Part shown: in pieces, positions 14,311 to 45,347 of the stretch
How positions within the stretch are numbered: the stretch's first letter is position 1
How the letters are laid out: every line of letters begins with the position of its first letter
DNA from: a virus
Strand: one strand, 5' to 3'
DNA: 61,300 nucleotides
IMG/VR virus record: IMGVR_UViG_3300021961_006819
Span: 1-61,300 of that record
Program-made: the position numbers and the translations under genes
The notes under the pieces: model-generated
Databases searched by the model: none
Told to the model about the DNA's origin: nothing
What the model saw: the letters and a program-made list of their open reading frames with translations, nothing else

Positions 14311-14312
14311 TA

Positions 14313-14810: not shown

Positions 14811-14815
14811 AAATT

Positions 14816-15433: not shown

Positions 15434-15484
15434 TGGGAGTTTTGGAAACGATTCGTGTGTCCTAAAGAAAATTTTCAATTTCCT

Positions 15485-17173: not shown

Positions 17174-17964
17174 AACAAAAAACAATAGAGTTACAAAAAG
17201 AACTACAATCATTACAATATATGGATGAGAGATTATCCGTATTGAAAAATCAATATGATGGTGAAACCGCATATATTATTGCGGCCGGACCATCCCTAAA
17301 CAATTATTCAATTAATCAATTGAAAAAAGTATTGGGAGATAAGTTGGTATTTTGTATTAAACAACCATACCATAATCTAAAAGATATTACTGACTTTTTG
17401 TTTCTTAATTTTACAAATCTATCACCATATCAGTTTCAATCCGATACGATTGTATCTTGGGCTTATTGGTTTCAACAACATCCTCAAGTTATTGCCGACC
17501 AAAAGTGGAAGGCTGATTTGTTGTTCCCCATCTTCAGAAATGAAAATATTGATAACAAGATAAGTCAATCTATTGCGTATAGAAACGACTTTGAAAATAT
17601 TTCATTCGAAAAGAGTATCGAGCGACCTTGGGGGCCAGGTCTAATGTATGAACTTGCTATTCCAATGGCTCTACATTTAGGATGTAAAAAGATTGTTACT
17701 ATTGGGTGGGATATTGGAGATATTAATATGTGGTCAAATCCAAGTGATGAAAATGAAAGACACTTTGTTGAACACTTTTATTCTCCCGAAACACCAATGT
17801 ATGATAAATTCAAAATGGATGCCGAAGAGGTTATGTTGATTACCAAATCCGTAACCGATTTAAGTAATTATCTAAAATCTATGGGTGTTGAGTTCCAAAT
17901 CATATCAGACCGAAATCCGGCCGATAGTTCTATCCAAAGAATTGAATTAGAAGACATAAAATGA
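17170..17964 (+). CDS. DUF115/GT29-like transferase, probable CMP-sugar user
   Basis: A 264-residue protein with AYIIAAGPSLNNYSINQLKK near residue 33 and GPGLMYELAIPMALHLGCKKIVTIGWD near 155. The GPSL motif and the later GxD strand occur in DUF115 (motility accessory factor) and GT29 sialyltransferase-like enzymes that transfer nonulosonic or Kdo-type sugars from CMP. It overlaps the CMP-Kdo-synthetase-like gene by 4 bases, which supports a CMP-sugar donor. The acceptor is unknown. Confidence 0.6.
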   Translation: MKQKTIELQKELQSLQYMDERLSVLKNQYDGETAYIIAAGPSLNNYSINQLKKVLGDKLVFCIKQPYHNLKDITDFLFLNFTNLSPYQFQSDTIVSWAYWFQQHPQVIADQKWKADLLFPIFRNENIDNKISQSIAYRNDFENISFEKSIERPWGPGLMYELAIPMALHLGCKKIVTIGWDIGDINMWSNPSDENERHFVEHFYSPETPMYDKFKMDAEEVMLITKSVTDLSNYLKSMGVEFQIISDRNPADSSIQRIELEDIK

Positions 17965-18347
17965 ACATAGAAGAATATAATATCCTACAAAAGAATGAAA
18001 ACGCCAATCAGATTGCGATAGATTTTGATGGAGTAATCCATAAGAATTCTTTAGGATTTCACGATGGTAGTGTTTATGATGAACCTATTGAGGGTTCGTT
18101 GGAAGCAATTCGCAAATTATATGATATGGGTTACTCCATAGTTATATTCACCGCCAAAGCAAAGTCAGATAGACCTCTTGTAAATGGTAAAACTGGTGAA
18201 GAGTTGATTTGGGAGTGGCTGGAAAAATATAATGTTTCTCAATACATCAAGTCGATAACATCGGAGAAGCCAAGAGCCAAGTATTACATCGATGATAATG
18301 CTGTAAGGTTTACTAATTGGGTTGATGTTTTAGGTTTGGTAATGTAA
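17961..18347 (+). CDS. HAD-family phosphatase
   Basis: A 128-residue HAD protein: IAIDFDGVIH (nucleophile DxD), VIFTAKAKSD (motif II Thr), and YYIDDNAVRF (acidic motif). No cap domain. Small HAD enzymes dephosphorylate sugar phosphates; in Kdo synthesis KdsC does this step. Coming directly after the aldolase/CMP-transferase and the GPSL transferase, it may complete the keto-sugar pathway. The link is contextual. Confidence 0.75.
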   Translation: MNIEEYNILQKNENANQIAIDFDGVIHKNSLGFHDGSVYDEPIEGSLEAIRKLYDMGYSIVIFTAKAKSDRPLVNGKTGEELIWEWLEKYNVSQYIKSITSEKPRAKYYIDDNAVRFTNWVDVLGLVM

Positions 18348-18366
18348 AAAATATTTTGTATATTTG
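18335..18366 (+). promoter_or_regulatory. Bacteroidota-type promoter inside gene end
   Basis: TTTG 18335-18338, a 20-base spacer, TATATTTG 18359-18366. The -33 element lies in the last codons of the HAD gene. It drives the aminotransferase at 18382 and the rest of the glycan block. Confidence 0.85.
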
Positions 18367-18381
18367 TAAAAATAAATTGTT

Positions 18382-19566
18382 ATGAAAGAGCAAATACCTT
18401 TATTTAAAGTGTTTATGAGTCCCACCGCTAAAGATGAGGTGGCTAAAGTTCTTGATAGTGGATTCATAGGTCAAGGTGCTGTTGTAGAAAAATTCGAAAA
18501 GAACCTGTCCGATTTCCTTGAGAACGATAGAGTATTGACTCTCAATTCGGGTACATCAGGTCTTCATCTAGCCTTACATCTTTTGAAAGCTCCAAAGAAA
18601 TCAACTCAAGTATTTCACGGAGTCGCTTCAATTGATTCATATTGGCCCGGTCTTGAAGATGGTGATGAAGTTTTGGCTACATCGCTGACTTGTACGGCTT
18701 CCAATTTTCCAATTCTGGCTAATAATCTAAAGATTAAGTGGGTAGATATCAATCCTACAACATTAAACATTGATTTGGATGACTTGGAAAGAAAGTTAAG
18801 TCCAAAGACAAAAGTTATTATGTTGGTACATTGGGGTGGATATCCGAATGATTTGAATCGTATTCAACAAATTCAAGAAAAAGCCAAACGGATGTATGGT
18901 TTTAAACCTGCTGTTATTGAAGATGGTGCTCACTCATTTGGTACAAGATATATGGGTAAACCACTTGGAAACCACGGAAATATTGTAATGCACTCGTTGC
19001 AGGCAATTAAACATATCACTTCAGTTGATGGTGGTATTTTGATACTACCTCACCAAGAACTTTATAGTAGAGGTAAGTTGATTCGTTGGTATGGTATTGA
19101 CCGAGATTCTAATCGTAAGGATTTCCGATGTGAAGCTGATATTCCGGAATGGGGATTTAAATTCCATATGAATGATGTGAATGCGGCTGTGGGTATAGAG
19201 AACTTGAAACACGCCAAGAATATTATTACGACTCACCAGGACAACGCCAAGTTCTACGACCAAAATCTTCAAAATATTAGTGGTCTTGAAACCTTGAAAC
19301 GAGAGGTTGGCCACGAATCTGCGTTTTGGATTTATTCAATGTTGGTAGATGACCGAGATGGATTTATGAAATGGATGAAAGAATGTAACATCATCGTTTC
19401 TCAAGTACACGAACGAAACGATAAACATTCTTGTGTTAGGGAGTACACATCAGCCCTTCCACAACTTGATAGAACCATTGGTAAGGTAGTTTCAATTCCA
19501 GTTGGTTGGTGGGTTAACGCTGAACAGCGTGAATATATTGTAGATTGTATCAAAAAAGGTTGGTAA
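18382..19566 (+). CDS. DegT/DnrJ/EryC1-type sugar aminotransferase
   Basis: A 394-residue PLP enzyme: GFIGQGAVVEKFEKNL, then LTLNSGTSGLHLALHLL, IEDGAHSFGTRYMGKPLG (Asp holding the pyridine N) and HSLQAIKHITSVDGG with the PLP-binding Lys. These enzymes transfer an amino group to a nucleotide-linked keto sugar. Residues 75-95 carry an insertion (STQVFHGVASIDSYW) relative to usual members. It has its own promoter at 18335. Probable role: an amino sugar for the phage-encoded glycan. Confidence 0.92.
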   Translation: MKEQIPLFKVFMSPTAKDEVAKVLDSGFIGQGAVVEKFEKNLSDFLENDRVLTLNSGTSGLHLALHLLKAPKKSTQVFHGVASIDSYWPGLEDGDEVLATSLTCTASNFPILANNLKIKWVDINPTTLNIDLDDLERKLSPKTKVIMLVHWGGYPNDLNRIQQIQEKAKRMYGFKPAVIEDGAHSFGTRYMGKPLGNHGNIVMHSLQAIKHITSVDGGILILPHQELYSRGKLIRWYGIDRDSNRKDFRCEADIPEWGFKFHMNDVNAAVGIENLKHAKNIITTHQDNAKFYDQNLQNISGLETLKREVGHESAFWIYSMLVDDRDGFMKWMKECNIIVSQVHERNDKHSCVREYTSALPQLDRTIGKVVSIPVGWWVNAEQREYIVDCIKKGW

Positions 19567-20156
19567 TGTATATTGAACCGAGTATTGAGTCATCCTATCA
19601 TTTTAACAATAAGGGAGCTCATCCAAGTCAAAATGTAAACCTCTATTTTCAACCCAATATTGGTGTTGAAATCTATAACATCGTTATGGAAAAAAAACCA
19701 AAGGTGGTTGTTGAATTTGGAGTTTTGAATGGATTTTCAACAGTATGTATCGCACAAGCTCTTCGTGACCTTGGTGGTGGTAAATTATACTCTTACGATT
19801 TGTGGGAAAAATATCCATATAAGAGAGGTAATAAAGAAATAGTTGCTTCTAATTTAGAATACTACAACTTAACTAAATATGTTGAATTGTGTGATGGTGA
19901 CTTTATGGAATGGTGTAATCAAAGACACGAATGTGATTTACTTCATCTTGATGTAAATAATGATGGTAACATTATTGAGATGGTAAATGAGAAAATAGAT
20001 TGGTGTGATATCATTTTCGAAGGTGGCTCAGTAGAACGAGATAATTGTTGGTGGATGAGAGAATTTAATAGACGCCCAATTAACGAAGTAAAAGAATTAA
20101 CTAACTACAAAGTTTTGGTGGAGGATTTCCCATCAATATCAATTATAGAAAGATAA
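19566..20156 (+). CDS. SAM-dependent methyltransferase
   Basis: Start ATG 19566 overlaps the aminotransferase stop (TAATG) and gives MYIEPSIESSYHFNNKG, 196 residues; the upstream in-frame ATG at 19545 is inside the previous gene. KVVVEFGVLNGFSTVCIAQAL is SAM motif I, YSYDLW the acidic end of beta 2, and DLLHLDVNNDG motif IV, as in class I methyltransferases acting on sugars (Methyltransf_24 type). Likely adds a methyl group to a sugar of the glycan. Confidence 0.75.
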   Translation: MYIEPSIESSYHFNNKGAHPSQNVNLYFQPNIGVEIYNIVMEKKPKVVVEFGVLNGFSTVCIAQALRDLGGGKLYSYDLWEKYPYKRGNKEIVASNLEYYNLTKYVELCDGDFMEWCNQRHECDLLHLDVNNDGNIIEMVNEKIDWCDIIFEGGSVERDNCWWMREFNRRPINEVKELTNYKVLVEDFPSISIIER

Positions 20157-20157
20157 T

Positions 20158-21057
20158 ATGCCTCATTTTTTTAGAATGTATGGTGAGTCGGTTCAAGACC
20201 TTGGGGAAGTTCCTCGTTTAGGTTGGTCTTCCGATGACGCATATATGATTGATGATGAATACCTTCAACGAGGTAGATTTCTGATAATGAGGATGTGTAA
20301 TGGTTTTGGGGATTGGGGTATCATTTCATCGATGCCAAGATTGTTAAAGCAGAAATATCCACATTCTAAAATATATGTTCCAAGTGAAACATTCATAAAA
20401 AAGATATTTGGAGATTCATCTGCTTGGAAACATTGGCCTCAAGCTGAATTAAATTCTTATCGGACATTTGTAAACAACCCATATATAGATGGATTTGTAG
20501 ATTCGTTTGATGATGAGGTCTACCACGACCATTACAGAATATATGACAGGATGAATGTAAATATCCCTTTGGTAAAACAAATGTTGAAATTTTGGGGATT
20601 GTCTGAAGATGAAATGATTGATTATGAACCAGAACTATATTTTAGTGATGATGAAAAAGAACAAGGTGATGCTCTAATCAGAGAATACTTTGGAGAATCT
20701 AACTTTGGTGGATTCATAGCAACAAGTAGTCAGCTTGGGGCTGGTCGTTTCTTTGATGAACATAGAAATAATCTAATCATTAATGAGTTAAAAAAACACG
20801 ACTTAAAATATGTGTACTATGGTGGTGTTGATATAAAAGACACTCCGTTCGGTGAGTATGTTAATGTGGGTTTGGATTTTGCTAAAGTCCCAACTTCATT
20901 GAGAGTTCAATTATACATCCGTTCAAAGGCAAAAGTGAACATTGGGTATCAAAGTTCTATTCACGAATTGATTTGTAGATACTCGCCGATTGTATGTACT
21001 GAAATGGATGGTGGCCCGAGAGAAAATTACTTTGATAAAATAACTTACTTGAAATGA
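20158..21057 (+). CDS. Heptosyltransferase-like (GT9-type) glycosyltransferase
   Basis: A 299-residue protein with MRMCNGFGDWGIISSMPRL followed by KYPHSKIYVPSETF. This is the pattern of GT9 enzymes (GxGD, two hydrophobic turns, R-x-LK-x-x-YP). The C-terminal part SKAKVNIGYQSSIHELICRYSPIV corresponds to the donor-binding half. GT9 enzymes build LPS cores. One base separates it from the previous gene, and ATGA links it to the next. Confidence 0.65.
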   Translation: MPHFFRMYGESVQDLGEVPRLGWSSDDAYMIDDEYLQRGRFLIMRMCNGFGDWGIISSMPRLLKQKYPHSKIYVPSETFIKKIFGDSSAWKHWPQAELNSYRTFVNNPYIDGFVDSFDDEVYHDHYRIYDRMNVNIPLVKQMLKFWGLSEDEMIDYEPELYFSDDEKEQGDALIREYFGESNFGGFIATSSQLGAGRFFDEHRNNLIINELKKHDLKYVYYGGVDIKDTPFGEYVNVGLDFAKVPTSLRVQLYIRSKAKVNIGYQSSIHELICRYSPIVCTEMDGGPRENYFDKITYLK

Positions 21058-22106
21058 AATTAAACTACAAATATATCATAGGAACACATACTATGTTCTA
21101 TGAGATTGAGATTCTATCAGAATTTGTTGACTCTCTGATTCAATGCGCAACCGAGGTTGATAATCGTGAAAACATAACATATGATTTTACATTCAATATC
21201 AGCGAATATCTTGAAGCCGTAGATACTACACAAATCACAAAAGAAAAACTTGTGTGGATGTTTGAGAAACAAATGGAAAGATTGACCAATGTTGGTGTTA
21301 ATGTTAGATACAACATCTATTCAGATGATTCTAAATTGTATAGTATTGCGGACTATCGTAGGGACTTTAATTATCATAATTGTTCAGACCACGATTATTT
21401 GATTTGGGGTGAAACTGATTCACTATTTCCCAAACAATTATTTGAGGGTTTGGAAACAATTAAAAATTATGCCGTAAGTCAAAACATTCATAGATACACG
21501 GTTTGGTTTGCTGAACGAAAGATGTGGGATGACTCTTGGAAACCATTAGAACATATTGATTTTGAAAATGAGAAGTATATTTCCATCAAAGATTTTGCTA
21601 CCGAAGAGGAGTATAAGAAGAAGATTTTAGAATCACCACATAGCATTCGATATGTAATGAATCTTGATGAGATGAATGAAATCAATAACAAGTACGCCGA
21701 TTTTAACATTCAAGTATTACAATATCCAAAGTTTAACGGATGTGGTCTTGTTATGAGTTCCGACTTTGTAAAAGCTGGTGTAAACATACCAAGAGGTATT
21801 TTTGGAGTCGTAGCGGAGGACACCGCTATGATGATATCAGCTCAACAAGTTATGGGTAAGGCATATATTCAGTTTATTGTTAAAAATGTATTGTTAGTCC
21901 ACAATAGAGAACACACTCGTAAGCGAATGTATTGTGTAGATAAGGAAACTCAATCTGAAAGTGGTATGGGTGATTCATATAAACACGGTAAAGGTAACTG
22001 GTTTGATAGAATTCTTGATATGTGTAAACAAAATGTAAATCTATTGGGTTACAGACAAGATAGGTTTTTTACAATAGAAGATTTTGAAAATGAAAATAGA
22101 GCTTGA
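21054..22106 (+). CDS. GT-A-like glycosyltransferase
   Basis: A 350-residue protein. The beginning YKYIIGTHTMFYEIEILSEFVDSL resembles GT2-type starts and DHDYLIWGETDSLFPKQLFEGL contains the ExD metal site. NGCGLVMSSDFVKAGVNIPRGIFGVVAEDTAM has the conserved ED-type acid near the acceptor site. Family is uncertain. It overlaps the next gene by 23 bases. Confidence 0.6.
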   Translation: MKLNYKYIIGTHTMFYEIEILSEFVDSLIQCATEVDNRENITYDFTFNISEYLEAVDTTQITKEKLVWMFEKQMERLTNVGVNVRYNIYSDDSKLYSIADYRRDFNYHNCSDHDYLIWGETDSLFPKQLFEGLETIKNYAVSQNIHRYTVWFAERKMWDDSWKPLEHIDFENEKYISIKDFATEEEYKKKILESPHSIRYVMNLDEMNEINNKYADFNIQVLQYPKFNGCGLVMSSDFVKAGVNIPRGIFGVVAEDTAMMISAQQVMGKAYIQFIVKNVLLVHNREHTRKRMYCVDKETQSESGMGDSYKHGKGNWFDRILDMCKQNVNLLGYRQDRFFTIEDFENENRA

Positions 22107-22860
22107 TTATTTTATTGAAGAACCCAATAGAGTAGACCCCAGCGTAATCCCAAGTATTGATGTTTCATATGAGGATGTGAAATCCATCTACAATCAGTCA
22201 AACATCAGTAGAAAGTATAACGACTATTTGAAGGGCAAGTCGGTAATTCTTGTCGGACCTGCATCATACCTTGAAGGTAAAAGTCGTGGTGATGAATTTG
22301 ACTCATTTGATGTTGTTGTTAGATTGAATCGTTCGTATCCGGTCAACAACACAATTGACTATGGAAAAAAATGTGACATCCGATATCATAATATGAGCCA
22401 AAACGCAGCACAAGGTGGTCCGTTTCTCCGTGAACAAATGGAATCTGATGGTGTTATGTTTATATCATCACCATTTCCAAAACACCTATCATATTTTCAT
22501 AATGATATAAAAGTATGTGAATCTCATATGAAAGGTAGTCAGGTTCAGTTTCATCAATGGGCCGACCTCGAACAATTCTTAACACTACATATGATTCTAC
22601 AAACAAGGCCAAATATTGGAGTATGTGCTATTCTTGACTTGTTAAATTACGATATAAAACAACTACATATTAGTGGAATTACCTTTTTTGAAGATGGATA
22701 TTCTTCGGAGTACAAAGATAGGGATGATGACCTCGTTCCAGCATATCATCAGAACAGAGTTATAAATCACGCCCAAAAACCACAAAAAGAATTGATAAAA
22801 TTAATTTCAGAAAATGATAGTAGAATTACTATGGATAAAGAAGTAAAGGAGTCGTTATGA
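22084..22860 (+). CDS. GT29 sialyltransferase-like enzyme
   Basis: A 258-residue protein. The L-motif-like part is SVILVGPASYLEGKSRGDEFDSFDVVVRLNRSYP with YGKKCDIRY. The S-motif-like part is RPNIGVCAILDLLNYDIKQLHISGITFFEDG. This order (VGNSPSL, F-D-x-V-V-R-x-N, T-G, GFDFF) is typical of family 29, which uses CMP-sialic acid or CMP-Kdo-like donors. A phage-encoded CMP-sugar synthetase lies upstream at 15485, giving a donor source. Translation starts inside the previous gene. Confidence 0.75.
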   Translation: MKMKIELDYFIEEPNRVDPSVIPSIDVSYEDVKSIYNQSNISRKYNDYLKGKSVILVGPASYLEGKSRGDEFDSFDVVVRLNRSYPVNNTIDYGKKCDIRYHNMSQNAAQGGPFLREQMESDGVMFISSPFPKHLSYFHNDIKVCESHMKGSQVQFHQWADLEQFLTLHMILQTRPNIGVCAILDLLNYDIKQLHISGITFFEDGYSSEYKDRDDDLVPAYHQNRVINHAQKPQKELIKLISENDSRITMDKEVKESL

Positions 22861-23813
22861 AAATAGCATTTTTTAGTGAGATGGGATTTGTTGGTAAAAT
22901 ACCAAGAACCCATAGAAATATGAGAGTTGAATTTGCTCAGATGTGTGCTCTAAACGCAGACCATTATCCGATGTTACAAATTCAACAAGTAAAAGAAGAA
23001 TATGATTTTGCTATTTTGTTGGTAGGTAAATCCACCAATTTTAGAAACCAAATAGCAAATATTGATGTTGTAACCGAAGCGAGAAGATTTGCCAAAAAGG
23101 TTCTATGGATGCAAGAGGGGCCACATTGGGTATTTCAAGATATGCCATTAGAACATCAGTTTTGGCATTATAGTGTTTTAGCCGCAGCCGATGGATTGTT
23201 AAGTGAAAACAAAACTGACATTCCGTACTTTAAAGGTATAATGGGCGATGATAAGTGGGTTGAGGACATTCCAAGTTTGATGATTACTGACCTTGTTAAA
23301 GATGTTGAGTACGCTGAGAAAGAAGAGAAAGTTGTAGTTGGTGGAAATTTTGTAAGATGGTATGGTGGATTTGATTCTTATGTATGTGCTAGAGATTTAA
23401 ATATTCCAATTTGGGCGCCATCTATGGGGCGGAAGATTGAAAATGAAGATTTGATAGAAGATATGAACTACTTTCCATATATGGAATGGGTTGATTGGAT
23501 TAAGACACTATCATCTTTTAAATACGCAATCCATCTTATGCCAACAACCGGCGCCGGAACATTTCCTATGAATTGTGCTTACTTGGGTATTCCGTGTGTT
23601 GCGTATAACGACTTGGATACTCAAGTTAATTTACACCCCGACTTGTCAGTAAATCCAAGTGATGTTCAGAGTGCTAGAAAACTTCTGAACAAATTAAAGA
23701 ATGACCCTATCTTTTATAAAGATATGAGTGATAAATGTAGATACTTATATAAAGAACACCATTCGGAAGAATCGTTTCTATTAGATTTTAGTAAAAAGTT
23801 ACAAACATTATGA
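22857..23813 (+). CDS. GT-B-like glycosyltransferase
   Basis: A 318-residue protein. It starts KIAFFSEMGFVGKIPRTHRNMRVEF (GT4-like). The C-terminal part has HLMPTTGAGTFPMNCAYLGIPCVAYNDLDTQ, similar to the donor-binding loop of GT-B enzymes, though the usual Glu pair is not obvious. It is linked by 4-base overlaps to both neighbours. Donor and acceptor are unknown. Confidence 0.6.
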   Translation: MKIAFFSEMGFVGKIPRTHRNMRVEFAQMCALNADHYPMLQIQQVKEEYDFAILLVGKSTNFRNQIANIDVVTEARRFAKKVLWMQEGPHWVFQDMPLEHQFWHYSVLAAADGLLSENKTDIPYFKGIMGDDKWVEDIPSLMITDLVKDVEYAEKEEKVVVGGNFVRWYGGFDSYVCARDLNIPIWAPSMGRKIENEDLIEDMNYFPYMEWVDWIKTLSSFKYAIHLMPTTGAGTFPMNCAYLGIPCVAYNDLDTQVNLHPDLSVNPSDVQSARKLLNKLKNDPIFYKDMSDKCRYLYKEHHSEESFLLDFSKKLQTL

Positions 23814-24997
23814 TTACAAAAAAAGATATTAGTTTTATACAACCATCACGAAACAACTTGAAATACCTCAAGTGGTCGTATGAGGGTATTAGGAAGAATG
23901 CAGGGCCTGAACCTACCATCTGCGTTGCTGATGATTTCAGTAACGATGGAACTTGGGAGTGGTGTGAAGAGATGATGTCTAAAGACCCAAACTTTAAGGC
24001 ACTTCGTAATGAAGGGCCAGCTAGATTGGGTCACACCATTCTCTATGACCGACTTATCAACGAGTTAGCGACAACATCAATCGTAGGTATTTACCACGCA
24101 GATATGTGGTTGTGTCCTGGTGCTCTTGAATCCGTATTGGAACACATCAAACCATTAACGGTAGTATCACTCACTCGTATTGAGCCCGACCTACACCCAG
24201 CCGGACCGGAGAAGGTGTTGATTCGAAACGCACCCACCGAGCCGGAGCATTTTGATGAGGTTTGGTTCAACGATTTCTTCAACGAGTATCTACCTCAAGT
24301 AAAGGGTAAAACTACCGAAGGTATCTTTGCACCTTGGTTCTTGTTCAAAGAGGATTTCACATCCATCGGAGGACACGACCCATTGTATGCTCCTCAATCC
24401 AAAGAGGACTCTGACATCTTCAACCGATTCTTACTAAACGGATATCAGTTTGTTCAAACTTGGGAAGGTGCCGTATTCCATTTGACTTGTAGAGGTTCAC
24501 GATTCAATCCAACATTAACCACGCCTGGTCAAAACTCTAACGAGTGGGAGGCTCAAAACATTAGGTCTACTCGTAATTTTATCCGTAAGTGGGGGCACTT
24601 TGTAAAACACGATAAGTTGATGAAACCTATCGTTCCTCACAAATATGATATTGAGTTTAAGATTACAAATTGTGGTCCTAAACAACTTGAGGAATTAGAA
24701 CCTTGGTGTGATAGAATGACTATTGATATGAGTAAAATGGACATAGATTGGTATATTACCAAAGAACAATCAAACACCAAGTTTGACTTATCTAAAAAGT
24801 TCAATACGAACGAGAATTCAGACATTATTGTACAATTTGACGCTTTACGACTTACAAATCAGTCATATCAGTTCCTTACAAATTTGTCAGAAATCTTCGA
24901 TTTTAATCAATTTGATGTTGGTGAGTATGAATTTGATATATTTAATATAAAGGTCAACCGAGTAAAACATTACGAAGACAGGTTAGTTAAACTATGA
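23810..24997 (+). CDS. GT2-type glycosyltransferase with extra C-terminal domain
   Basis: A 395-residue protein. The catalytic GT-A domain (about 1-250) has DISFIQPSRNNLKYLKWSYEGI, CVADDFSNDGTWEW, IVGIYHADMWLCPGALE (DxM in place of DxD) and GGHDPLYAPQSKEDSDIFNRFLL. The C-terminal 130 residues are unrelated to the enzyme core and unrecognised. It closes the glycosyltransferase block. Confidence 0.8.
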   Translation: MITKKDISFIQPSRNNLKYLKWSYEGIRKNAGPEPTICVADDFSNDGTWEWCEEMMSKDPNFKALRNEGPARLGHTILYDRLINELATTSIVGIYHADMWLCPGALESVLEHIKPLTVVSLTRIEPDLHPAGPEKVLIRNAPTEPEHFDEVWFNDFFNEYLPQVKGKTTEGIFAPWFLFKEDFTSIGGHDPLYAPQSKEDSDIFNRFLLNGYQFVQTWEGAVFHLTCRGSRFNPTLTTPGQNSNEWEAQNIRSTRNFIRKWGHFVKHDKLMKPIVPHKYDIEFKITNCGPKQLEELEPWCDRMTIDMSKMDIDWYITKEQSNTKFDLSKKFNTNENSDIIVQFDALRLTNQSYQFLTNLSEIFDFNQFDVGEYEFDIFNIKVNRVKHYEDRLVKL

Positions 24998-25863: not shown

Positions 25864-26694
25864 ATGGCAGTTTACAAAAAAGGTGATAACAACGAGTTTA
25901 TCAAAGAGATTCAAAAAGTTTTGGGAGTAGAACAAGTAGGTAATTTTGGTCCTAAAACTGAAACTGCCGTAAAAGAGTTCCAAAAGAAACACGGATTGAC
26001 AGCCGATGGTATTGTTGGTCCTGGTACTTTAGAGAAAATGGGACTTAAAGCTCCCACAACCGCACCGACAAGTGCTCCTGCACCAAACAACAAACCTACC
26101 GCTGGTGCTAAATACTCAAAAGAGTCAATCGAGAAAACCGTAAAAGCTAAAGGTTACAAGTGGTTCGAAGGTAAGGATTACTTATTGAACATCGTTGGTG
26201 TTCGTAATTCAGATACCGGAACTAAAGTAACAAACGCGTTTGATGATAAGATTACTCTTTCATACCAAGTTAATGGTGAGTGGATTTACAAAGAGTGGAT
26301 GAACACAACTGACCCTGGTACAAAAGGTGTTAAAGAATACCACAACGCAGCCGGTGTTGCAAGATTGGTTCCTGGTCAATATGTTGACTCACACGCTTTG
26401 GGATTACACCAAGGTAAGTACGAAGCGCTCAAACAATTTGGTAAGGTTAAGGTCTATCGTGATGCGAATCGTGATATGAACTACGATGAGAAAGTAATCC
26501 AAGAAGGTGTATTTGGTATTAACATCCACAAAGCAGGTAAAGATTCTACTTATGTAGAGAACTGGTCTGAAGGATGTCAAGTATTCAAGAGAGAGGCTGA
26601 CTTTAACGAGTTTATGGATATTGTAAGAAAGTCAAAAGCCGCAGGTAACGCTAAATTTACTTACACTTTGATTGAAAGTAAAGATATCAAGTAA
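25864..26694 (+). CDS. Endolysin: peptidoglycan-binding domain plus L,D-transpeptidase-like domain
   Basis: A 276-residue protein. Residues about 5-60 form a PG_binding_1 domain (IKEIQKVLG...FGPKTETAVKEFQKKHGLTADGIVGPGTLEKMG). A Pro/Thr/Ala linker (about 62-85) follows. The catalytic-looking part ends GVFGINIHKAG...WSEGCQVFKR, with His and the S-x-G-C cysteine placed as in YkuD-type L,D-transpeptidases (H...SHGC). Such an enzyme acts on peptidoglycan stem peptides. The holin candidate follows directly, supporting a lysis role. AGGAG precedes the ATG. Confidence 0.75.
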   Translation: MAVYKKGDNNEFIKEIQKVLGVEQVGNFGPKTETAVKEFQKKHGLTADGIVGPGTLEKMGLKAPTTAPTSAPAPNNKPTAGAKYSKESIEKTVKAKGYKWFEGKDYLLNIVGVRNSDTGTKVTNAFDDKITLSYQVNGEWIYKEWMNTTDPGTKGVKEYHNAAGVARLVPGQYVDSHALGLHQGKYEALKQFGKVKVYRDANRDMNYDEKVIQEGVFGINIHKAGKDSTYVENWSEGCQVFKREADFNEFMDIVRKSKAAGNAKFTYTLIESKDIK

Positions 26695-26730: not shown

Positions 26731-27003
26731 ATGTTTTCATATATAAGGAGAAAATTTATGGCATTTAGTGACATTTTTAAGGACAACAACGAATACAACG
26801 AAAAGAACATCGTTGGTTTTATGTCGTTCGCTGTAATGGCTATCTTCGCAGGTGCGGATGTTGTTACAGGTATTATGGGTCAACATTTGGTGATTTCTGA
26901 CACCATCTTTAACTCATTCGTTATCATTGTTCTTGGTTCTTTCGGTATCGATGGTGTAACCAAGATTTTCAGTAAAAAAGATGATTCTTCTGAAGAAGGA
27001 TAA
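26731..27003 (+). CDS. Holin candidate with dual start
   Basis: 90 residues from ATG 26731 or 81 from ATG 26758. Two membrane segments: about IVGFMSFAVMAIFAGADVVTGIMG and FNSFVIIVLGSFGIDGV, with a charged C-terminus (KKDDSSEEG). Each start has its own Shine-Dalgarno: AAGGAGGT at 26717 for the first and AAGGAG at 26746 for the second. The second site is itself translated as IRRK in the longer form. Position after the endolysin and the size fit a holin. The longer form gains three positive charges at its N-terminus, like the lambda S107 antiholin. Holin identity is inference from topology and neighbours. Confidence 0.6.
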   Translation: MFSYIRRKFMAFSDIFKDNNEYNEKNIVGFMSFAVMAIFAGADVVTGIMGQHLVISDTIFNSFVIIVLGSFGIDGVTKIFSKKDDSSEEG

Positions 27004-27009: not shown

Positions 27010-27090
27010 TAATAGGGGGTCGCCTGATATATTTTAGTGTATTTAGGTGATTGAGTATTGAGAGTTTAATCGGCGGCTCCCTATTTTTAT
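27010..27090 (+). terminator. Long stem intrinsic terminator after lysis genes
   Basis: ATAGGGGGTCGCC near 27012 pairs with GGCGGCTCCCTAT near 27072 over 13 positions with G-T pairs, enclosing a loop of about 45 bases with further internal pairing. It is followed by ATTTTTATTTTTTT. The U-tract and GC stem make this a strong terminator. The large loop is unusual and might hold a small RNA. Confidence 0.8.
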
Positions 27091-27141
27091 TTTTTTAAAT
27101 TGTTACGAACAATAAGTTATACATTTAAATGGAGAGATTAA

Positions 27142-29052
27142 ATGAAAAAACTATCATTGTTGTTCGTGACATTACTCACGACACTAAACTTATTTGGTCA
27201 AAATGGTAAGAATGAAACCTTGACCGCACCGAACTCGAATTCACCATATTTCTTGGTGGATACTTCTTTTATACAGGGTTCGATTCTTGAAGATACAACT
27301 ACTATCTATCTTCACTTTGCTAACCCAACATCTACAAAGATTACCGCATTTCAGGTTAGATTCTTTTACGATACTGCAAACTTTAAAGCCCCTCAAGTAA
27401 AGTGGGGACCTGTTGCGTTATCAGTAACCGACAAGTATGGTGCTTACTACTCATCCTCAAATTGGGTGAATGTTTCTTTGGTATACACCGGAAACTCATC
27501 TACATTCGAGTGGTCTGATGGTGCTATTTTAAAAGTAATCTTCCCTCATAAGAGTGGATTTGACGCATCTGCAGTAGATTCATTGAAGGTTACCCCATTG
27601 AGTTCAAACTTCTCAAACATCGCAACCTCAAATACGGGTGTTGATATGACATTGGGTGTTTACTCTTATAATGGTGAGTTCTTACAACCAACCTTAAACT
27701 TCCCATTCTGGGTTAAAACTGTTTTGGGTGCTGGTACTAAAGGAATCTCCGTTCAATACCATCAAAAGAAAAAGACCGCTTCAACTTGGAATGCCGGTGA
27801 TGTATTCAGAACTGATTCAACCGGTCTTGCTATGATGGAAATCCCATACGACACTTCATTCTATAATGTCAAGTTCACGGTGGCTACCGACTCACTCTCC
27901 GATGGTTCTGCTATCTCAATCGTAGACGCATATAGATTGACTGAAGTATCCGTACAAACTGATACCTTATCTACATACGAGTATCAAGAGGGTGATGTTA
28001 ACTTGGATGGTAACCATTCCATCTCTGACGCATTCTTGGTATTCAATCGTTTGGCTACATCTGCTACAACTTGGAACTCTTTAGTGAGTGGTCAACATAA
28101 CCTTAAATTATTCAGAAAGACCGAATACGATTCAATCGTAAACTCATCCACATTCTTGACCACGAAGAGAGGTACATACACAATCGATAAAACAATCAAC
28201 GGATTGGATTCGGTTGTTTACTATTCTTATGTATTGGGTGATGTTACCTCTACCGGTTACAACACCACATCTTACTTGGTTGCCAAGATTGCTCCGGGCA
28301 ACACGGGAACAACTTATGTTCTTGACCAACAAAAGATATTGCAACACATTGATGACTCTATTCAGTTTGTAATTCCAAAGTTGACTATCTCCGCCGACAA
28401 CACCGCTGACATTCCTGTAACTCTTGTTACTCACGGAAACAAAGTGGGTGCTGCTCAAATCGGATTGGAGTACGACACTAATGTATTCAAGTTCTTGTCT
28501 TTGGATATGGGTTCTACAATGAGTCGCTGGACTTCATTCTTAACTAACGAGAATGGTAAAGTTCTTTGGGGTGGCCACGAATCACAAATGGACCCTGCTC
28601 TTGTAACTCAAAACACTCAAGTGTTCACATTCAAGTTCCAAATCAAATCTACCAATTGGGAAGAAACCCCAATCAGAGTATTCTCTAAAGCTGCTGGTGA
28701 TGAGAACGCAAGAGATTTGAACATCATCAAAACCCCTACCGATGCTACTGTTATTTATCGTAGAAAAAGGGATGATTTGGTTACCGAGTTGGTTGATGGA
28801 TTCCGTGTGTATCCTAACCCAGTTACCGAAGGATATGTATTGTTCGATTACTATATGGAAACTGAACACGAATTGTCAGTTGGTCTGATTAACCCAATGG
28901 GTCAGTTAGTAACCTTTGACAAACAACAAGTATACCAAGGTGGTGAGGTTGTCACCGGTATGTTGAATATGGATAATGTTGCTAATGGAAACTACATTCT
29001 CCTTCTTTCAACCCCAACAAAAACCAAATATTATAGAATCAGTAAATTTTAA
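27142..29052 (+). CDS. T9SS type A secreted protein with cohesin/dockerin-like domains
   Basis: A 636-residue exported protein. Signal peptide 1-19 (MKKLSLLFVTLLTTLNLFGQ). Two cohesin-like beta domains: about 35-165 and about 395-530 (VIPKLTISADNTADIPVTLVTHG...GAAQIGLEYDTNVFKFL). A dockerin-like calcium loop GDVNLDGNHSISDAFLVF lies at about 284-301. Residues about 553-636 (FRVYPNPVTEGYVLFDY...MGQLV...NGNYILLL...YRISKF) match the T9SS type A C-terminal sorting domain (TIGR04183-like). Known: these tails send proteins through the type IX system to the cell surface. Seen here in a phage genome between lysis and structural genes. Its role, surface remodelling or virion decoration, is inference. 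It has a GGAGAG Shine-Dalgarno. Confidence 0.8.
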   Translation: MKKLSLLFVTLLTTLNLFGQNGKNETLTAPNSNSPYFLVDTSFIQGSILEDTTTIYLHFANPTSTKITAFQVRFFYDTANFKAPQVKWGPVALSVTDKYGAYYSSSNWVNVSLVYTGNSSTFEWSDGAILKVIFPHKSGFDASAVDSLKVTPLSSNFSNIATSNTGVDMTLGVYSYNGEFLQPTLNFPFWVKTVLGAGTKGISVQYHQKKKTASTWNAGDVFRTDSTGLAMMEIPYDTSFYNVKFTVATDSLSDGSAISIVDAYRLTEVSVQTDTLSTYEYQEGDVNLDGNHSISDAFLVFNRLATSATTWNSLVSGQHNLKLFRKTEYDSIVNSSTFLTTKRGTYTIDKTINGLDSVVYYSYVLGDVTSTGYNTTSYLVAKIAPGNTGTTYVLDQQKILQHIDDSIQFVIPKLTISADNTADIPVTLVTHGNKVGAAQIGLEYDTNVFKFLSLDMGSTMSRWTSFLTNENGKVLWGGHESQMDPALVTQNTQVFTFKFQIKSTNWEETPIRVFSKAAGDENARDLNIIKTPTDATVIYRRKRDDLVTELVDGFRVYPNPVTEGYVLFDYYMETEHELSVGLINPMGQLVTFDKQQVYQGGEVVTGMLNMDNVANGNYILLLSTPTKTKYYRISKF

Positions 29053-29061
29053 GGAGTCGTT

Positions 29062-29451
29062 ATGAGCGAAGAAACCCAAGAAGGTGGATTGTCCACATTA
29101 AAGAAAACAGTAATCGGTATCGCCACTACCGCAGTTACAGCCGCAGGTGCGTATGTAACTACCCACATCGAAGCTATCTTTGGTGGTGGTGAAGAGGAAG
29201 TTAAAACGGAGCAAGTTGCCCAACCAGCAGCTGCCGCCGCTGCCGCCCCAATCATCCTGAATATCGAAAACAACAACACCCAACAACAAAACAATAGTGG
29301 TGGTGGTAAAACAATCATCAAGGAAACCGTGAGAGAAGTTCCCGCTGCCAGTTCAACTCCTGCTCCAGTAGTAGAAGAGAAGCCAGAAACTCCAGCAGAG
29401 AGAATGGCAAGATTGAAGAAACAACGAGAAGACCAAAACGGGGGTAAGTAA
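29062..29451 (+). CDS. Ala-rich membrane-tethered protein
   Basis: 129 residues: a short acidic N-terminus, a hydrophobic stretch (about 16-40, VIGIATTAVTAAGAYVTTHIEAIF), then Ala/Pro/Asn/Gln low-complexity and a charged coiled end (ERMARLKKQREDQNGGK). AAGGAG precedes the start. It sits between two exported proteins and may be a membrane-linked partner. No family recognised. Confidence 0.6.
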   Translation: MSEETQEGGLSTLKKTVIGIATTAVTAAGAYVTTHIEAIFGGGEEEVKTEQVAQPAAAAAAAPIILNIENNNTQQQNNSGGGKTIIKETVREVPAASSTPAPVVEEKPETPAERMARLKKQREDQNGGK

Positions 29452-30191
29452 TGAGAACTCGTAAAGATGTTATCCTCGAAAATATCTTCGCTCCAATCGG
29501 ATTGTTGATGGTGATTGGTGGTATGCTGTTGGTAGGTACTATGGCTACTTCTTGTAAGTCATCTATTGGTGTAACACAATACCAAGCTAATTTTGAAAAA
29601 GCTGACGCATTAGAAACCCTTCCACCATATACAGGTGAAAGACAAATCATCCAACTTTCCAAACTGAATGTAAACAAAGAGTTATGGGAAATGTTTCCAG
29701 AGCTTCGTGACAAACGAGTAGGTTTGGGTGTATCAAATCGTATTGTAGAAAACTTTGAAGTAACAAATCGTTTCAAGTATGCTGAAGAGAAAGACGCTAT
29801 TGTCAATCAGATGTTAGATGCTTGGGAAACCGATTTGAATGGTTTGGGTAATGGTGAAACAAAACTTTCTATGGAAGGTATTGCTATCCCTAAATACATC
29901 GTATATGCTGAGATTTATGATTTCGCAGTATCTTATGGTGAAACCTACGACAAAGGTAAATTAAACAAAACAAACACTACAATCATTGGTATTCAAATCC
30001 GTATGGTAAATGTAGATAACTCTCAATATATCGTGGCTTCAGGTCAAGGTACATCAACTCAAGTTGGTGAGGGTTACTTCAGAAATCCACAAATGGGATT
30101 TGACCAATCTACCGTTGGTATTGCTACCCAGAGAGCTTTGGAGGTTGCTACAATGAACCTCGTGAAGCGTATGGAAGCATATGGATGGTAA
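29451..30191 (+). CDS. CsgG-like lipoprotein (curli-type outer-membrane secretion pore family)
   Basis: A 246-residue protein. A membrane/signal segment (about 12-38) ends in TMATSC, a lipobox-like site. The body has VGLGVSNRIVENFEVTNRFKYAEE, a tyrosine/aspartate-rich strand (KYIVYAEIYDFAVSYGE), IIGIQIRMVNVDNSQYIVASGQG and FDQSTVGIATQRALEVATMNLVKRM. This order is that of CsgG-family proteins, which assemble outer-membrane channels for curli fibres. It neighbours a Gly/Ser-rich exported protein (30181), a plausible client. The family call is by pattern; whether it makes a pore is untested. Confidence 0.6.
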   Translation: MRTRKDVILENIFAPIGLLMVIGGMLLVGTMATSCKSSIGVTQYQANFEKADALETLPPYTGERQIIQLSKLNVNKELWEMFPELRDKRVGLGVSNRIVENFEVTNRFKYAEEKDAIVNQMLDAWETDLNGLGNGETKLSMEGIAIPKYIVYAEIYDFAVSYGETYDKGKLNKTNTTIIGIQIRMVNVDNSQYIVASGQGTSTQVGEGYFRNPQMGFDQSTVGIATQRALEVATMNLVKRMEAYGW

Positions 30192-31767
30192 GAAATTAAT
30201 ATTATTTTTAATCTTTGTATTGAGTGGCTTGGGTGTATACGCTCAGGCCACTTATACATATATAGACCCGTGTACTGGTGCACCGGTCACCATTCCCATT
30301 CAACAAGGTGGGGTAACAATGTCCTATGGGGGACAAGTCCAATTCTTTACTTATGCACAATTACAAGCCGGTGCTTACCAATCTTGGGTAGCCGGAATCA
30401 ACGCAACATTTCCACCAGGAACTGACCCTTGTGCTGGTCAAGGTGAGGCGGTAACAAACAATTTTAATACAAACTTGGGAAGTAATACTGCTACTACAAT
30501 TACAGGTATTGTTAGTATGGCTGCAAGTTTAGGTTCATCAATGAGTGGTGCGGCTTCAACCGCAGGTGGAATTAGTTCATCTGCAGCTGGAGGTGCTTCT
30601 GCCGGTGGTGGTAATTCTAATAACAATGATAACGGAGATAATAATGGTAATTCTAACAACTCTAACAATAGTGGTTCTTCTACTGGCTCTAATAGTAGCG
30701 GGAATTCTTCAGGTTCTTCAACATCAGGAGGAACGAGTGGGTCGAATGGCGGGTCATCTTCTAATGGCGGTAACAGTGGTTCTGGGGGCTCTTCCGGCGG
30801 TTCTTCTGGTTCTTCAGGCGGTGGGTCTACTGGCGGAGGAGGCTCAAACGGAGGTTCGAGTGGAGGTTCATCGGGTGGAAACAATGGCTCCGGTGGCGGA
30901 AGTACCGGTGGTTCTGGAGGTGGCGGAGGTGGAAGCACCGACCCCAACTCTGGAGTAAGTGGAACTGGTAGTACCGGTGGTGGAACTACTGAAAGTGGTG
31001 GAACTGAATCTACGGGCGCCGTGGGTGAAGGAACTACTACAACTACATCCGGTGGTGATTCTGAATCATCTGGTGATGGTGATGGTGGTGGTGGAGGAGG
31101 AGGCGGCAAACCCAAATCGAAACAAGAGAAAGTTGGTAGAGGTGCTTTGATTGGTGCTGGTGACTTTGTAATTATCCGTAACTCCGCAAACATCCAAGAC
31201 ACGGGCGTGGACAACTTCAAGTTCAATATGTCCCTTACTCACCTTAACACCAAACAAACATTCATTAAAGGTGTGAATCTAAACTATCAGACGGGTGAAA
31301 ATGTTGCGAATGTGACTTTGTATGGTTCATACAAAACACCATCCTTTATGGGAATCTTTTCAAACTCAACAATGTCAAACTTCACTACGGATTGGTTCAA
31401 TACCACATCGTTAATGGCGGCTCAAAAAGTAAAGTCGGTTACCGGTATGGTTGGTACGAACTTTACCTATGGATACTTGGGTAAGGGCCAGTTCTCCAAC
31501 TGGTCAATCATTGGTGGTGGATTCACGAATTTCAAGGGTGGTAGAAACTTTGGAGCTAATGTATTGTTATTGGGAGTGTATTCTCCATACATTTTCTACT
31601 ATGAAGGACAATGGTATAAATCTGGAATACTACTTATACCTATGATGAACACCGATTTTAAGGTGAGTGATTCATTCAAATGGAGTATCTCATTTTCAGG
31701 AGTTTATCAGTATGGAGCCGACATCCTAAACTGGCAATTATCAACGGGAACAAAGATTTTGTTATGA
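30181..31767 (+). CDS. Gly/Ser-rich exported protein with beta-barrel-like C-terminus
   Basis: A 528-residue protein: signal peptide about 1-22 (LILFLIFVLSGLGVYAQ), an N-terminal domain to about 100, and a 170-residue low-complexity stretch (about 140-310) of Gly, Ser, Asn and Thr. The C-terminal 200 residues have alternating beta strands (FNMSLTHLN, NVTLYGSYKT, VTGMVGTNFTYGYLG, KWSISFSGVYQYG), typical of outer-membrane barrels. It overlaps the CsgG-like gene by 11 bases and the next gene by 4. It could be a surface fibre or adhesin anchored in the outer membrane. No family recognised. Confidence 0.65.
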   Translation: MDGKKLILFLIFVLSGLGVYAQATYTYIDPCTGAPVTIPIQQGGVTMSYGGQVQFFTYAQLQAGAYQSWVAGINATFPPGTDPCAGQGEAVTNNFNTNLGSNTATTITGIVSMAASLGSSMSGAASTAGGISSSAAGGASAGGGNSNNNDNGDNNGNSNNSNNSGSSTGSNSSGNSSGSSTSGGTSGSNGGSSSNGGNSGSGGSSGGSSGSSGGGSTGGGGSNGGSSGGSSGGNNGSGGGSTGGSGGGGGGSTDPNSGVSGTGSTGGGTTESGGTESTGAVGEGTTTTTSGGDSESSGDGDGGGGGGGGKPKSKQEKVGRGALIGAGDFVIIRNSANIQDTGVDNFKFNMSLTHLNTKQTFIKGVNLNYQTGENVANVTLYGSYKTPSFMGIFSNSTMSNFTTDWFNTTSLMAAQKVKSVTGMVGTNFTYGYLGKGQFSNWSIIGGGFTNFKGGRNFGANVLLLGVYSPYIFYYEGQWYKSGILLIPMMNTDFKVSDSFKWSISFSGVYQYGADILNWQLSTGTKILL

Positions 31768-32882
31768 GAAAGTTTATTTTAACTCTGATTTTTGTACTAA
31801 TAGTACAAATTTGGGGATATTCTCAAACCATAACTCTTACCCCAATAGGAAATCATAGTGTTAGTGGTATACCAATAAAAATGGAACACTATGTCACTAC
31901 AACAAATTCAAGCACATTTGTAAGAGTATTCAGAACCCATTATGGAAATGGTAATACATCACAATACGCTCAATACCCATCCACTCGTTCTGAAATGGAT
32001 AAGTTATTTAATACTACATTTGCAGCAACAACTTGGTGGTGGCAAGGAAATATAAATGGTGGTACATCATTAAACTTTACGGCATACACAACACTAACTT
32101 CAGCCGGAGTATCCGTACCATCGGGTGGTGATTACTATGCCACGGAAGTAACATTCAACTTTGTTGCGGCAGAAACAGGCACCTACTCTTTTGGTATAAC
32201 ATCTGATGATGGTTCTGATTTAACAATCAACGGAACTTCGGTAATTGAATATTATGGTGGTAAGGGGATTGGTACTTACAAATATGGTAGTTACTCTATG
32301 ACAAAGGGTAATTCATATACAATTGTAGCACGAATGCAGGAATATGGTGGTGGTGATGGTTTGATAGTTAAATGGAAAAGACCTTCACAATCATCGTATA
32401 GTTTACAATTATCAGAGGTAGGTACTACTTCATCTACTTGGACTACACAATCTACACAAAATACTAATAGTAGTGGTCAGGCCACTTGGTCAAATAGTTC
32501 CTCGTGGCCGTATCGTGTGACAATTAATGTTTCGAATGTATTTCATACCATCACTACGGATGATATGAATTATATGTTCGATGTTAGATTGGGTACTCAT
32601 ACCATTTCAGGTTGGGATTTCTATACTTGTGATTGTAACAACTCATCCACATTCACACTTGATGATATTGAATTTTGTTATACATTGTGGTTAAATGGAT
32701 ACTATCACAACAAGTATATCTTTACTCAAGCTGAAAAAACTACCATTGAATCAAATCCCAACACTAATTATTATAACACATATTCACCATCCCAAAATAG
32801 AACAATTCAAAACGAAAGTCAGTTTTATATTATGGGAACTGGTAAACATAAAACAACAACTCAATATTTGAGAATAGAATGA
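31764..32882 (+). CDS. Secreted PA14-like protein with dockerin-like module
   Basis: I chose ATG 31764, overlapping the upstream stop; it gives a clear signal peptide (MRKFILTLIFVLIVQIWGYSQ) and 372 residues. Residues about 100-215 resemble a PA14 domain (TGTYSFGITSDDGSDLTINGTSVIEYYGGKG...VARMQEYGGGDGLIVKW), which binds carbohydrates. Near residue 283 GWDFYTCDCNNSSTFTLDDIEF is a degenerate dockerin-like loop. It is followed by YIFTQAEKTTIESN and NRTIQNESQFYIMGTG, shared with the next gene and the T9SS protein at 27142. There is no obvious T9SS tail. Confidence 0.7.
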   Translation: MRKFILTLIFVLIVQIWGYSQTITLTPIGNHSVSGIPIKMEHYVTTTNSSTFVRVFRTHYGNGNTSQYAQYPSTRSEMDKLFNTTFAATTWWWQGNINGGTSLNFTAYTTLTSAGVSVPSGGDYYATEVTFNFVAAETGTYSFGITSDDGSDLTINGTSVIEYYGGKGIGTYKYGSYSMTKGNSYTIVARMQEYGGGDGLIVKWKRPSQSSYSLQLSEVGTTSSTWTTQSTQNTNSSGQATWSNSSSWPYRVTINVSNVFHTITTDDMNYMFDVRLGTHTISGWDFYTCDCNNSSTFTLDDIEFCYTLWLNGYYHNKYIFTQAEKTTIESNPNTNYYNTYSPSQNRTIQNESQFYIMGTGKHKTTTQYLRIE

Positions 32883-34033
32883 AATGGTTATTACTATTTT
32901 TACCAACCCTAACATTTGCCCAAACTATCACGGTAGTTCCGTTAGGTAATATTCGTAAGGATAGTATCCCAATCAAAGTCGAACATTATAGTTCGGCATC
33001 AACCACTGGTGCTATCACCAAAATCACATCCAACATTCCAACTGATAGAGGTCGAACGGGGTTAACTCAAATATGGAATACCGCAAACTCCGACCAAGGT
33101 AATTTGACGGTAAACTTCCCAAGTGGGTATGGATTTGCCGTTGGGACAACAACATACTCAAACGCAACCCTACACGCAAATGCTTGGTTTGCTCTTGGAA
33201 CATCGACATATAATAGTTACGCAGGAAACGCATCAAATCCAAATGTCCCAACCATCCACTTCACATCGGTAAACAATTCAAATACAGACAATAATATGTC
33301 GTGGGCTGGGACTGAAACTTATTATGACTCTACATTGAGTGCTGATGTATTTAGAGTGAGATACGAAGGTAGTTACAAATACAATGTTAGTGGTATCAAC
33401 ACAAAAATAGATTTGATATTCTTTAAATCAGATTGGACTAAATGTTATGTCCTAACACGAACATTCCTTGCGGATGGTTCTGGTATAGAACAAATCGGTC
33501 TATCAAATGGTTCATCGTGGTTGGCGTCAATCACCAACTCAAGTTTCTCAAGTGGGGAGTGTTACCAACTGACATCATCTGCGACGGTAGCCGCTTGGAC
33601 ATCCCAAGGAACAAAATACACCGACTCTACCGGTAAAGTGGTATTCACAAATAGTAGTGGCGCTCAATATAGAGTGACCTTACCATCTATGACTTATGCC
33701 GCCGACACCTCAACTCGTTCATATTTCAGTAGTAGAATCCTACAACTGGATTCCGTGGTTGGATTTGATTGGTATTGTTTGGATGTTTATAGTGATAACA
33801 AAATAGATGTGGCTGATATACAAGCCGCATATTATTCACATAATCAGTCCACCTTACGAAATGGTCTTTGGTTTACTCAATCCGAGTATAACTCAATTGT
33901 AAATTCAACTACAAACCCAAAATCGACATATCCACCCTATTCTTCTGCGGTGATATCGAATCAAAATACATTTTATATAATAGTTATGACATATCCACCC
34001 AAATCATTTAAAAAAGTAGGAGAATTAAAATGA
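32879..34033 (+). CDS. Secreted protein, paralogue of the preceding gene in its ends
   Basis: A 384-residue protein. Signal peptide MKWLLLFLPTLTFAQ then TITVVPLGNIRKDSIPIKVEHY, matching the preceding protein (TITLTPIGNHSVSGIPIKMEHY). The middle is a different beta-rich domain. The C-terminus GFDWYCLDVYSDNKIDVADIQAAYYSHNQ has a better dockerin-like loop (D-x-Y-x-D-x-K-x-D-x-x-D), followed by LWFTQSEYNSIVNS and SNQNTFYII, the shared end module. The two genes look like duplicates with swapped middles. 4-base overlaps on both sides. Confidence 0.7.
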   Translation: MKWLLLFLPTLTFAQTITVVPLGNIRKDSIPIKVEHYSSASTTGAITKITSNIPTDRGRTGLTQIWNTANSDQGNLTVNFPSGYGFAVGTTTYSNATLHANAWFALGTSTYNSYAGNASNPNVPTIHFTSVNNSNTDNNMSWAGTETYYDSTLSADVFRVRYEGSYKYNVSGINTKIDLIFFKSDWTKCYVLTRTFLADGSGIEQIGLSNGSSWLASITNSSFSSGECYQLTSSATVAAWTSQGTKYTDSTGKVVFTNSSGAQYRVTLPSMTYAADTSTRSYFSSRILQLDSVVGFDWYCLDVYSDNKIDVADIQAAYYSHNQSTLRNGLWFTQSEYNSIVNSTTNPKSTYPPYSSAVISNQNTFYIIVMTYPPKSFKKVGELK

Positions 34034-34428
34034 ACCCAATCGTATGTTACTTCGTTGCTTCAGTAATGTCTTTAGCATCTATCAAAGATATCCCACAAGA
34101 AAAGTTCACCTTTGGTGTTAGACAAATCACGGAAGAGATTCTCGCCGAATCCGCACCTATTTGTCCTGATGGTTCACCTGTTTATGTGGTTGTAGAATCT
34201 ATTGAAGCTCCAACCAACGCAGTTAGAATCGGACCATTCGAATTCAAACAAAAAAAGACCATCGTTACAGTTAAAGTAACCAAAGATGGTAAGGAAACCA
34301 TTGGGGTTGGAACTGCTAAAATGAATGTCGCAGCCACTCTTTTACAACTCCAAGACCCAGACCTTCCGTTCGAACAAACGGAATTTTCAATTGCTATGAA
34401 AAAAGCGATTGAATCCGCGCTTAGGTAA
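34030..34428 (+). CDS. Hypothetical protein linked to the exported block
   Basis: 132 residues. A hydrophobic start (MNPIVCYFVASVMSLAS) may be a weak signal peptide, then TFGVRQITEEILAE, VYVVVESIEAPTNAVRIGPFEF, and IVTVKVTKDGKETIGVGTAKMNVAATLL. The alternating strands and helix resemble one half of a CsgG-like fold, but I cannot call it. TAGGAG precedes the start. It closes the exported block. Confidence 0.55.
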   Translation: MNPIVCYFVASVMSLASIKDIPQEKFTFGVRQITEEILAESAPICPDGSPVYVVVESIEAPTNAVRIGPFEFKQKKTIVTVKVTKDGKETIGVGTAKMNVAATLLQLQDPDLPFEQTEFSIAMKKAIESALR

Positions 34429-45327: not shown

Positions 45328-45347
45328 TTAAAAATAAGGAAAAAGTT

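Follow-up and report, generated by a model that had tools for sequence, protein, structure and literature searches.

The usual view of large lytic phages is that they destroy the surface of their hosts and do not build on it. Surface adhesins that use the type IX secretion system (T9SS) are familiar from the Bacteroidota cells themselves, where RemA/SprB-like proteins combine a signal peptide and a C-terminal sorting domain with lectin domains displayed on the surface. Phage-encoded T9SS cargo has a precedent in Cryophage, for which three such genes were reported in 2020; a role in competition or superinfection exclusion was proposed for them (PMC7468147). Phage clusters for curli (type VIII secretion, T8SS) are known from pelagiphages and from the methylophage Melnitz (PMC7029224, PMC9599517, PMC9004378).

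Here we analysed a linear IMG/VR virus record of 61.3 kb (the window), in which seven adjacent genes, overlapping or nearly touching, form an operon (27142-34428; it lies on the plus strand, as do the hairpin and lysis genes upstream of it). This conserved operon appears to use the host T9SS for the display of exchangeable lectins. We think it probable, short of secure, that it is a phage system for placing swappable adhesins on the infected Bacteroidota cell through a cohesin-dockerin scaffold, with export, anchoring, cohesin-dockerin binding, timing and purpose all inferred. The domain content, the conservation of the operon and of the sorting tail, the selection on that tail, the CsgG fold, the dockerin-like homology and the swapping of tips are what the analysis shows.

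In RemA/SprB-like cargo the adhesin itself normally bears the sorting tail, whereas here the anchor and the adhesin are separate proteins. A similar difference separates the operon from Cryophage. Both systems include phage proteins with type A T9SS tails (with a PA14 protein in the Cryophage set) and vary between phage variants; there, the tail sits on each variable enzyme or PA14 protein. Here a single conserved anchor with a cohesin bears the tail, and the adhesins, which vary, are tail-less with a dockerin-like end. The passages of the Cryophage report that we consulted mention neither a cohesin, nor a CsgG-fold protein, nor a conserved operon (PMC7468147). An earlier, sequence-only reading of the window had held that T9SS cargo is not usually found in phages, a statement that the Cryophage genes overtake. 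In this finding, that reading also did not bring out what is more unusual, namely a conserved operon that joins a CsgG-fold lipoprotein to swappable adhesin tips, and a second T9SS cargo, of type B, at 53166-54740. The operon also resembles the anchoring scaffoldins of cellulosomes in having a predicted surface protein with one or more cohesins, putative partners with dockerin-like ends and modular exchange of the partners' other end. Unlike the scaffoldins, it would rely on T9SS and not SLH or sortase anchoring, carries adhesins and not enzymes, has a divergent dockerin and is phage-encoded, and there are no binding data.

The window contains T4-type DNA polymerase, clamp and clamp-loader genes. 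Relatives with 68-72% identity occur in other viral contigs, one of them 186.6 kb long; the phage contigs with the same locus span 111-270 kb, and a gp23-type major capsid gene is present in 8 of the 14 records that we checked. The locus is also found in a cultured Flavobacterium phage, immuto (vB_FspM_immuto, NC_055915; 160 kb; host Flavobacterium sp. LMO8), where gp013-gp019 form the same module in the same order, except that the adhesin is placed before the anchor. These immuto proteins are about 27-42% identical to those of the window and their annotations go no further than hypothetical, cohesin or lectin protein; a search for other cultured phages with the module found none beyond the immuto isolates. 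Because numerous phage contigs, independent of one another, and also an isolate have the same locus, we can exclude a chimera or a join to a host chromosome, which would have refuted the sequence-only reading. The GC content of the module (0.40) is also near that of the whole window (0.38). The window phage presumably infects Bacteroidota, with the host known only for its relative immuto, a Flavobacterium.

The first gene of the operon (27142-29052), an open reading frame for 636 amino acids exactly where it had been placed from the sequence alone, encodes what HMM matches and an AlphaFold model lead us to read as a T9SS-anchored cohesin scaffold protein, the anchor. It begins with a signal peptide, MKKLSLLFVTLLTTLNLFGQ (about residues 1-20; 27142-27201), which we recognised by eye, as we did the similar N-termini in all 34 representatives of the family. 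At the other end lies a type A T9SS sorting domain (residues 556-635; 28807-29046), which matches TIGR04183 at 23.4 bits against a cut-off of 23; with PF18962 the protein does not reach the cut-off (21 vs 27). Given that the match of the window tail is marginal by itself, we brought in its relatives. Each of the 34 representatives is matched by both tail models, the tail of immuto gp015 scores 44.8 bits, and a profile of the anchor family matches a solved T9SS sorting domain (PDB 8glj_D, E 5.8e-6). The tail is also under purifying selection, with dN/dS of 0.04-0.18 in five close pairs; the pair formed by the window and L005, which is near saturation, gives 0.42. The sorting tail and the signal peptide together support the assignment of the anchor as T9SS type A cargo, with export, processing and anchoring by the host inferred. 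The signal peptide and sorting tail that had been predicted thus both hold, the former on a reading by eye, and the idea of a multi-domain surface protein carried by a phage as T9SS cargo gains support.

Between these ends, the anchor carries a clear cohesin domain (residues 407-537; 28360-28752). PF00963 matches it at 45.9 bits against a cut-off of 24.1 and matches 32/34 family members, and the AlphaFold model (pLDDT 81.5) resembles solved type I cohesins (1g1k, TM 0.75). A second beta-sandwich near the N-terminus (the N-domain, residues 33-184; 27238-27693) gives no cohesin match in the window protein by itself, and a direct hhalign comparison of this domain with the C-terminal cohesin was not significant. 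The same segment alone matches PF00963 in 10 of 23 relatives (best E 1.5e-4), and a search against the PDB returned a weak cohesin match (4ums, E 0.31); for these two reasons we regard the N-domain as probably a second, divergent cohesin. Two cohesin-like domains had been claimed from the letters alone; the C-terminal one stands, and the N-terminal one is only probable.

The region between the two domains (residues 186-375; 27697-28266) is an Ig/SdrD-B-like and dockerin-like module, and the neighbouring adhesins end in a region homologous to it (hhalign Prob 99.5, E 7.7e-23); the anchor N-domain and the anchor cohesin, compared as controls, gave no match. The module contains the predicted dockerin-like calcium loop, DVNLDGNHSISD (residues 285-296; 27994-28029), which is kept in all 42 non-redundant relatives. 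Of the two loops of a dockerin, the second is good here and the first degenerate. Pfam Dockerin_1 remains under its cut-off in the window anchor (14.8 vs 22.9, E 0.03), reaches E <= 0.1 in 15/34 family members (best 7.8e-5) and matches 3/47 adhesins. Because they fall under the Pfam cut-off and lack one canonical loop, the dockerin-like modules may not bind cohesin. In immuto the anchor is naturally divided into two genes, gp014, with the N-domain and the dockerin-like module, and gp015, which starts with a signal peptide of its own and has the cohesin and the T9SS tail; this split suggests that the two halves work together.

Two exported proteins with dockerin-like C-termini are encoded further downstream. 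The first (31764-32882) is an adhesin with a PA14 tip (PF07691, 29.1 bits), and its likely start, 31764, overlaps the preceding stop. The second (32879-34033) has a tip without a known fold. The sequence-only reading had suggested that the anchor could provide docking sites for other exported proteins; this gains support from the finding that exported, tail-less proteins downstream end in a module homologous to one in the anchor itself, with the docking still inferred. Among 47 adhesins scanned, the tips include 16 Lectin_C (C-type lectin), 13 PA14 and 2 LamG domains, and no T9SS tail was found on any of these 47 variable adhesins among Pfam matches at E <= 0.01.

The tips are exchanged between phages. 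Two contigs, L043 and L052, have module genes with 95-100% identity, and their adhesins are 86% identical in the signal peptide and 94% in the dockerin-like end, yet the tip is a different domain. At least three lineages show such swaps, the CsgG-like proteins of the phages concerned being 93-100% identical, and it is mainly the signal peptide and the dockerin-like end of the adhesin that are retained across them.

Similar tips appear in proteins outside the module. The PA14 tip of the window is 45% identical to a domain of an 1822-aa collagen-like protein of a sibling phage, G001, that is likely a tail fibre (its collagen repeats inflate its family scores), and the LamG tip of another adhesin, from L006, resembles an immuto protein annotated as a 'structural protein'. 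The tip domains thus recur in likely virion fibres, a point that we also count in favour of the display model. Capsids and fibres often carry Ig/cohesin-like domains and lectin tips, and the sharing of PA14 and LamG domains with likely virion proteins would be expected if the exported proteins coated or decorated virions. We consider a virion component very unlikely, however: conservation of the signal peptides and T9SS tails extends throughout, the assembly of virions takes place in the cytoplasm, and the structural genes of immuto sit elsewhere in its genome.

The order of the module is anchor, small membrane protein, CsgG-fold protein, Gly/Ser-rich protein, adhesin and small CsgG-like protein, and the first four genes follow this order at all 65 loci that have the five conserved genes, not all of which are independent. 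The conserved second gene (29062-29451) encodes a protein of 129 residues that has a single hydrophobic segment, at its N-terminus, and a tail rich in Pro and Ala. The fourth (30181-31767), also conserved in the module, encodes a signal peptide, an N-domain, a Gly/Ser-rich linker and a C-terminal part whose sequence, on an unverified reading, resembles an outer-membrane beta-barrel; Pfam gave no convincing match to this protein or its relatives. A comparison of the module proteins with PHROGs returned no significant match. Many T9SS cargo proteins are encoded by Bacteroidota and related genomes, so captured host surface genes without a defined phage role could in principle be carried along as neutral cargo. 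This explanation is hardly credible in the face of purifying selection, a gene order conserved over wide divergence and CsgG-like relatives that are nearly absent from genomes.

The third gene (29451-30191) encodes a 246-aa outer-membrane lipoprotein with a predicted CsgG fold. We modelled it with AlphaFold2 using 28 relatives (pLDDT 68) and compared the model with the PDB using Foldseek; the 25 best matches are all CsgG, with E values down to 2.1e-9 and TM about 0.45. The lipobox is clear in several relatives and imperfect in the window protein. Only this fold search shows CsgG. By sequence, the protein was not recognised as CsgG in Pfam, NCBIfam or a PDB profile search, and hhalign of its family against the CsgG of pelagiphage HTVC008M gave only a weak collinear profile match (Prob 14.6). 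The last gene of the operon (34030-34428), conserved in position, encodes a small CsgG-like protein; from its profile similarity to the 29451 family (hhalign Prob 88.5, E 2.7e-6), it is a compact paralogue.

Relatives of this lipoprotein are present in at least 413 viral stretches, and the family is almost absent from cells. A scan of GTDB gave five matches, two of them phage contigs that have all or part of the module. The other three are cellular loci, at none of which did we see an anchor gene; in 395 genomes from a single phylum, a search gave one match, one of the phage contigs already found in GTDB. The three cellular relatives (L093, L094 and L095, from KSB1, Ignavibacteriales and a Bacteroidota MAG) have a different, uncharacterised arrangement, with a second CsgG-like or related gene close by in L093 and L094. 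Another arrangement is seen in L067, L069, L070, L072, L073, L075 and L096, where a 600-aa relative of gp015 lies upstream and the CsgG-like gene adjoins an endolysin. For L070, whose record is 139 kb long, no tail of T9SS type A could be recognised, and this branch may for that reason anchor its protein differently.

The CsgG fold raises the possibility of a phage curli-like (type VIII) fibre system, in which the pore would export the adhesins and a fibre, the T9SS protein would be an accessory anchor, and cells would aggregate as proposed for pelagiphages (PMC9599517, PMC7029224). Like the clusters of pelagiphages and Melnitz, the module is a conserved cluster that combines a CsgG-fold outer-membrane lipoprotein with exported proteins and is absent from the host. 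The HTVC008M cluster even encodes an exported protein, gp018 (10638-11963 of L010), that reads as a PA14-like domain followed by curlin repeats, a parallel to the PA14 and dockerin adhesins. In contrast to those clusters, no curlin repeats, CsgF, FecR or cyclase were recognised in the module; Pfam found neither the curlin subunits CsgA/B nor CsgF, and CsgE was likewise not recognised. The relation to the HTVC008M CsgG is hardly detectable by sequence, and the T9SS/cohesin anchor and the dockerin-like adhesins are additional here. Module proteins tested against HTVC008M gp14, gp17 and gp18 gave no match; 34030 as a counterpart of its CsgF and 30181 as a homologue of gp17/gp18 were both rejected for lack of a profile match. 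We therefore find a curli-like fibre system improbable.

The genes just upstream bear on another explanation. An endolysin-like protein with a PG-binding domain (25864-26694; HMM matches) and a small holin-like membrane protein (26731-27003) directly precede the operon; the latter was recognised from its sequence, recurs beside the module and has no family or PHROG match. Endolysin or holin-like genes lie within 7 kb of the module in 26/33 loci, a proportion for which we have no background rate. Their proximity fits late expression, and it fits equally the hypothesis, made for the CsgGF pore of Melnitz, of a regulator of lysis (PMC9004378). On that view the outer membrane would be opened at the end of infection by the CsgG-fold pore together with the beta-barrel-like and small membrane proteins, with the T9SS protein targeting or gating the pore, and a small membrane protein beside an outer-membrane lipoprotein is indeed a spanin-like layout. 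Lysis is nevertheless an unlikely function, as it leaves unexplained the conserved cohesin, the T9SS tail and the lectin and PA14 tips swapped on a constant rest. In addition, the lysis genes are parted from the operon by a strong hairpin with a T tract, a likely terminator (27011-27095; RNA fold z = -4.74, with none of 200 shuffles as stable). A scan for sigma-70 promoters gave no clear excess over shuffles.

In the surface-display model that we favour, the anchor would be made with a Sec signal, pass the outer membrane through the host T9SS and stay on the surface by the usual T9SS route. Its cohesin or cohesins would bind the adhesins from the downstream genes of the operon by their dockerin-like ends, and the lectin, PA14 or LamG tips, which are exchanged between phages, would face outward. 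Because the adhesins have no T9SS tail, they would get to the surface in one of two ways, carried through the T9SS on the anchor or by way of the operon's own CsgG-type pore; T9SS export by itself does not account for the presence of a CsgG-fold protein. The displayed tips would probably bind surface glycans of the host type. They could mask receptors on the infected cell and its debris, which would exclude superinfection and reduce the loss of progeny, or they could keep nearby host cells within reach ('sibling capture'). The data favour neither purpose over the other.

We also put forward, as a tentative extension about which we are rather more doubtful than confident, that the module is a two-route display machine of aquatic Bacteroidota phages. 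The T9SS-exported anchor and the phage CsgG-type pore would jointly assemble cohesin-dockerin adhesin complexes whose tips are exchanged like those of tail fibres, so that infection would reprogramme what the dying cell binds.

There is a substantial chance that the module is a distinct kind of system; in the open-access literature, to which our search was limited, we found no report of a phage-encoded cohesin/dockerin scaffold or of T9SS combined with CsgG. If the display model is true, this would be a phage-encoded cohesin-dockerin system, and the puzzling phage curli clusters would be linked to a clearer adhesin architecture. The module would also offer a natural T9SS-anchored display scaffold with swappable tips. 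With immuto and its Flavobacterium host both available in culture, the model can already be put to the test.

Several further genes of the window were noted. A second T9SS cargo protein (53166-54740) has a type B (CHU_C) tail, matching TIGR04131 at 37.8 bits against 35 and CHU_C at 62.4 bits. No relatives of this protein were found in the phage collection; type B tails are present in 6/15 large viral records, some of them near the module. Just before it lie an exported DNA/RNA non-specific endonuclease (51529) and a lipoprotein-like protein (52116), together spanning 51529-53162; the nuclease has a PHROG match and adjoins the adhesin module in immuto and several contigs. A long run of glycosyltransferase-like, aminotransferase-like and sugar-pathway-like genes (11624-24997) precedes the lysis genes, and it includes an apparent fusion, by reading, of an aldolase-type domain to a CMP-Kdo-synthetase-like (KdsB) domain (15455-17173). 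A TspO/MBR-like membrane protein (44810-45295) was likewise recognised by reading, and next to it a region at 45297-48550 encodes a phage GroEL, with a PHROG match, and a nearby gene (45297) that reads as GroES-like.
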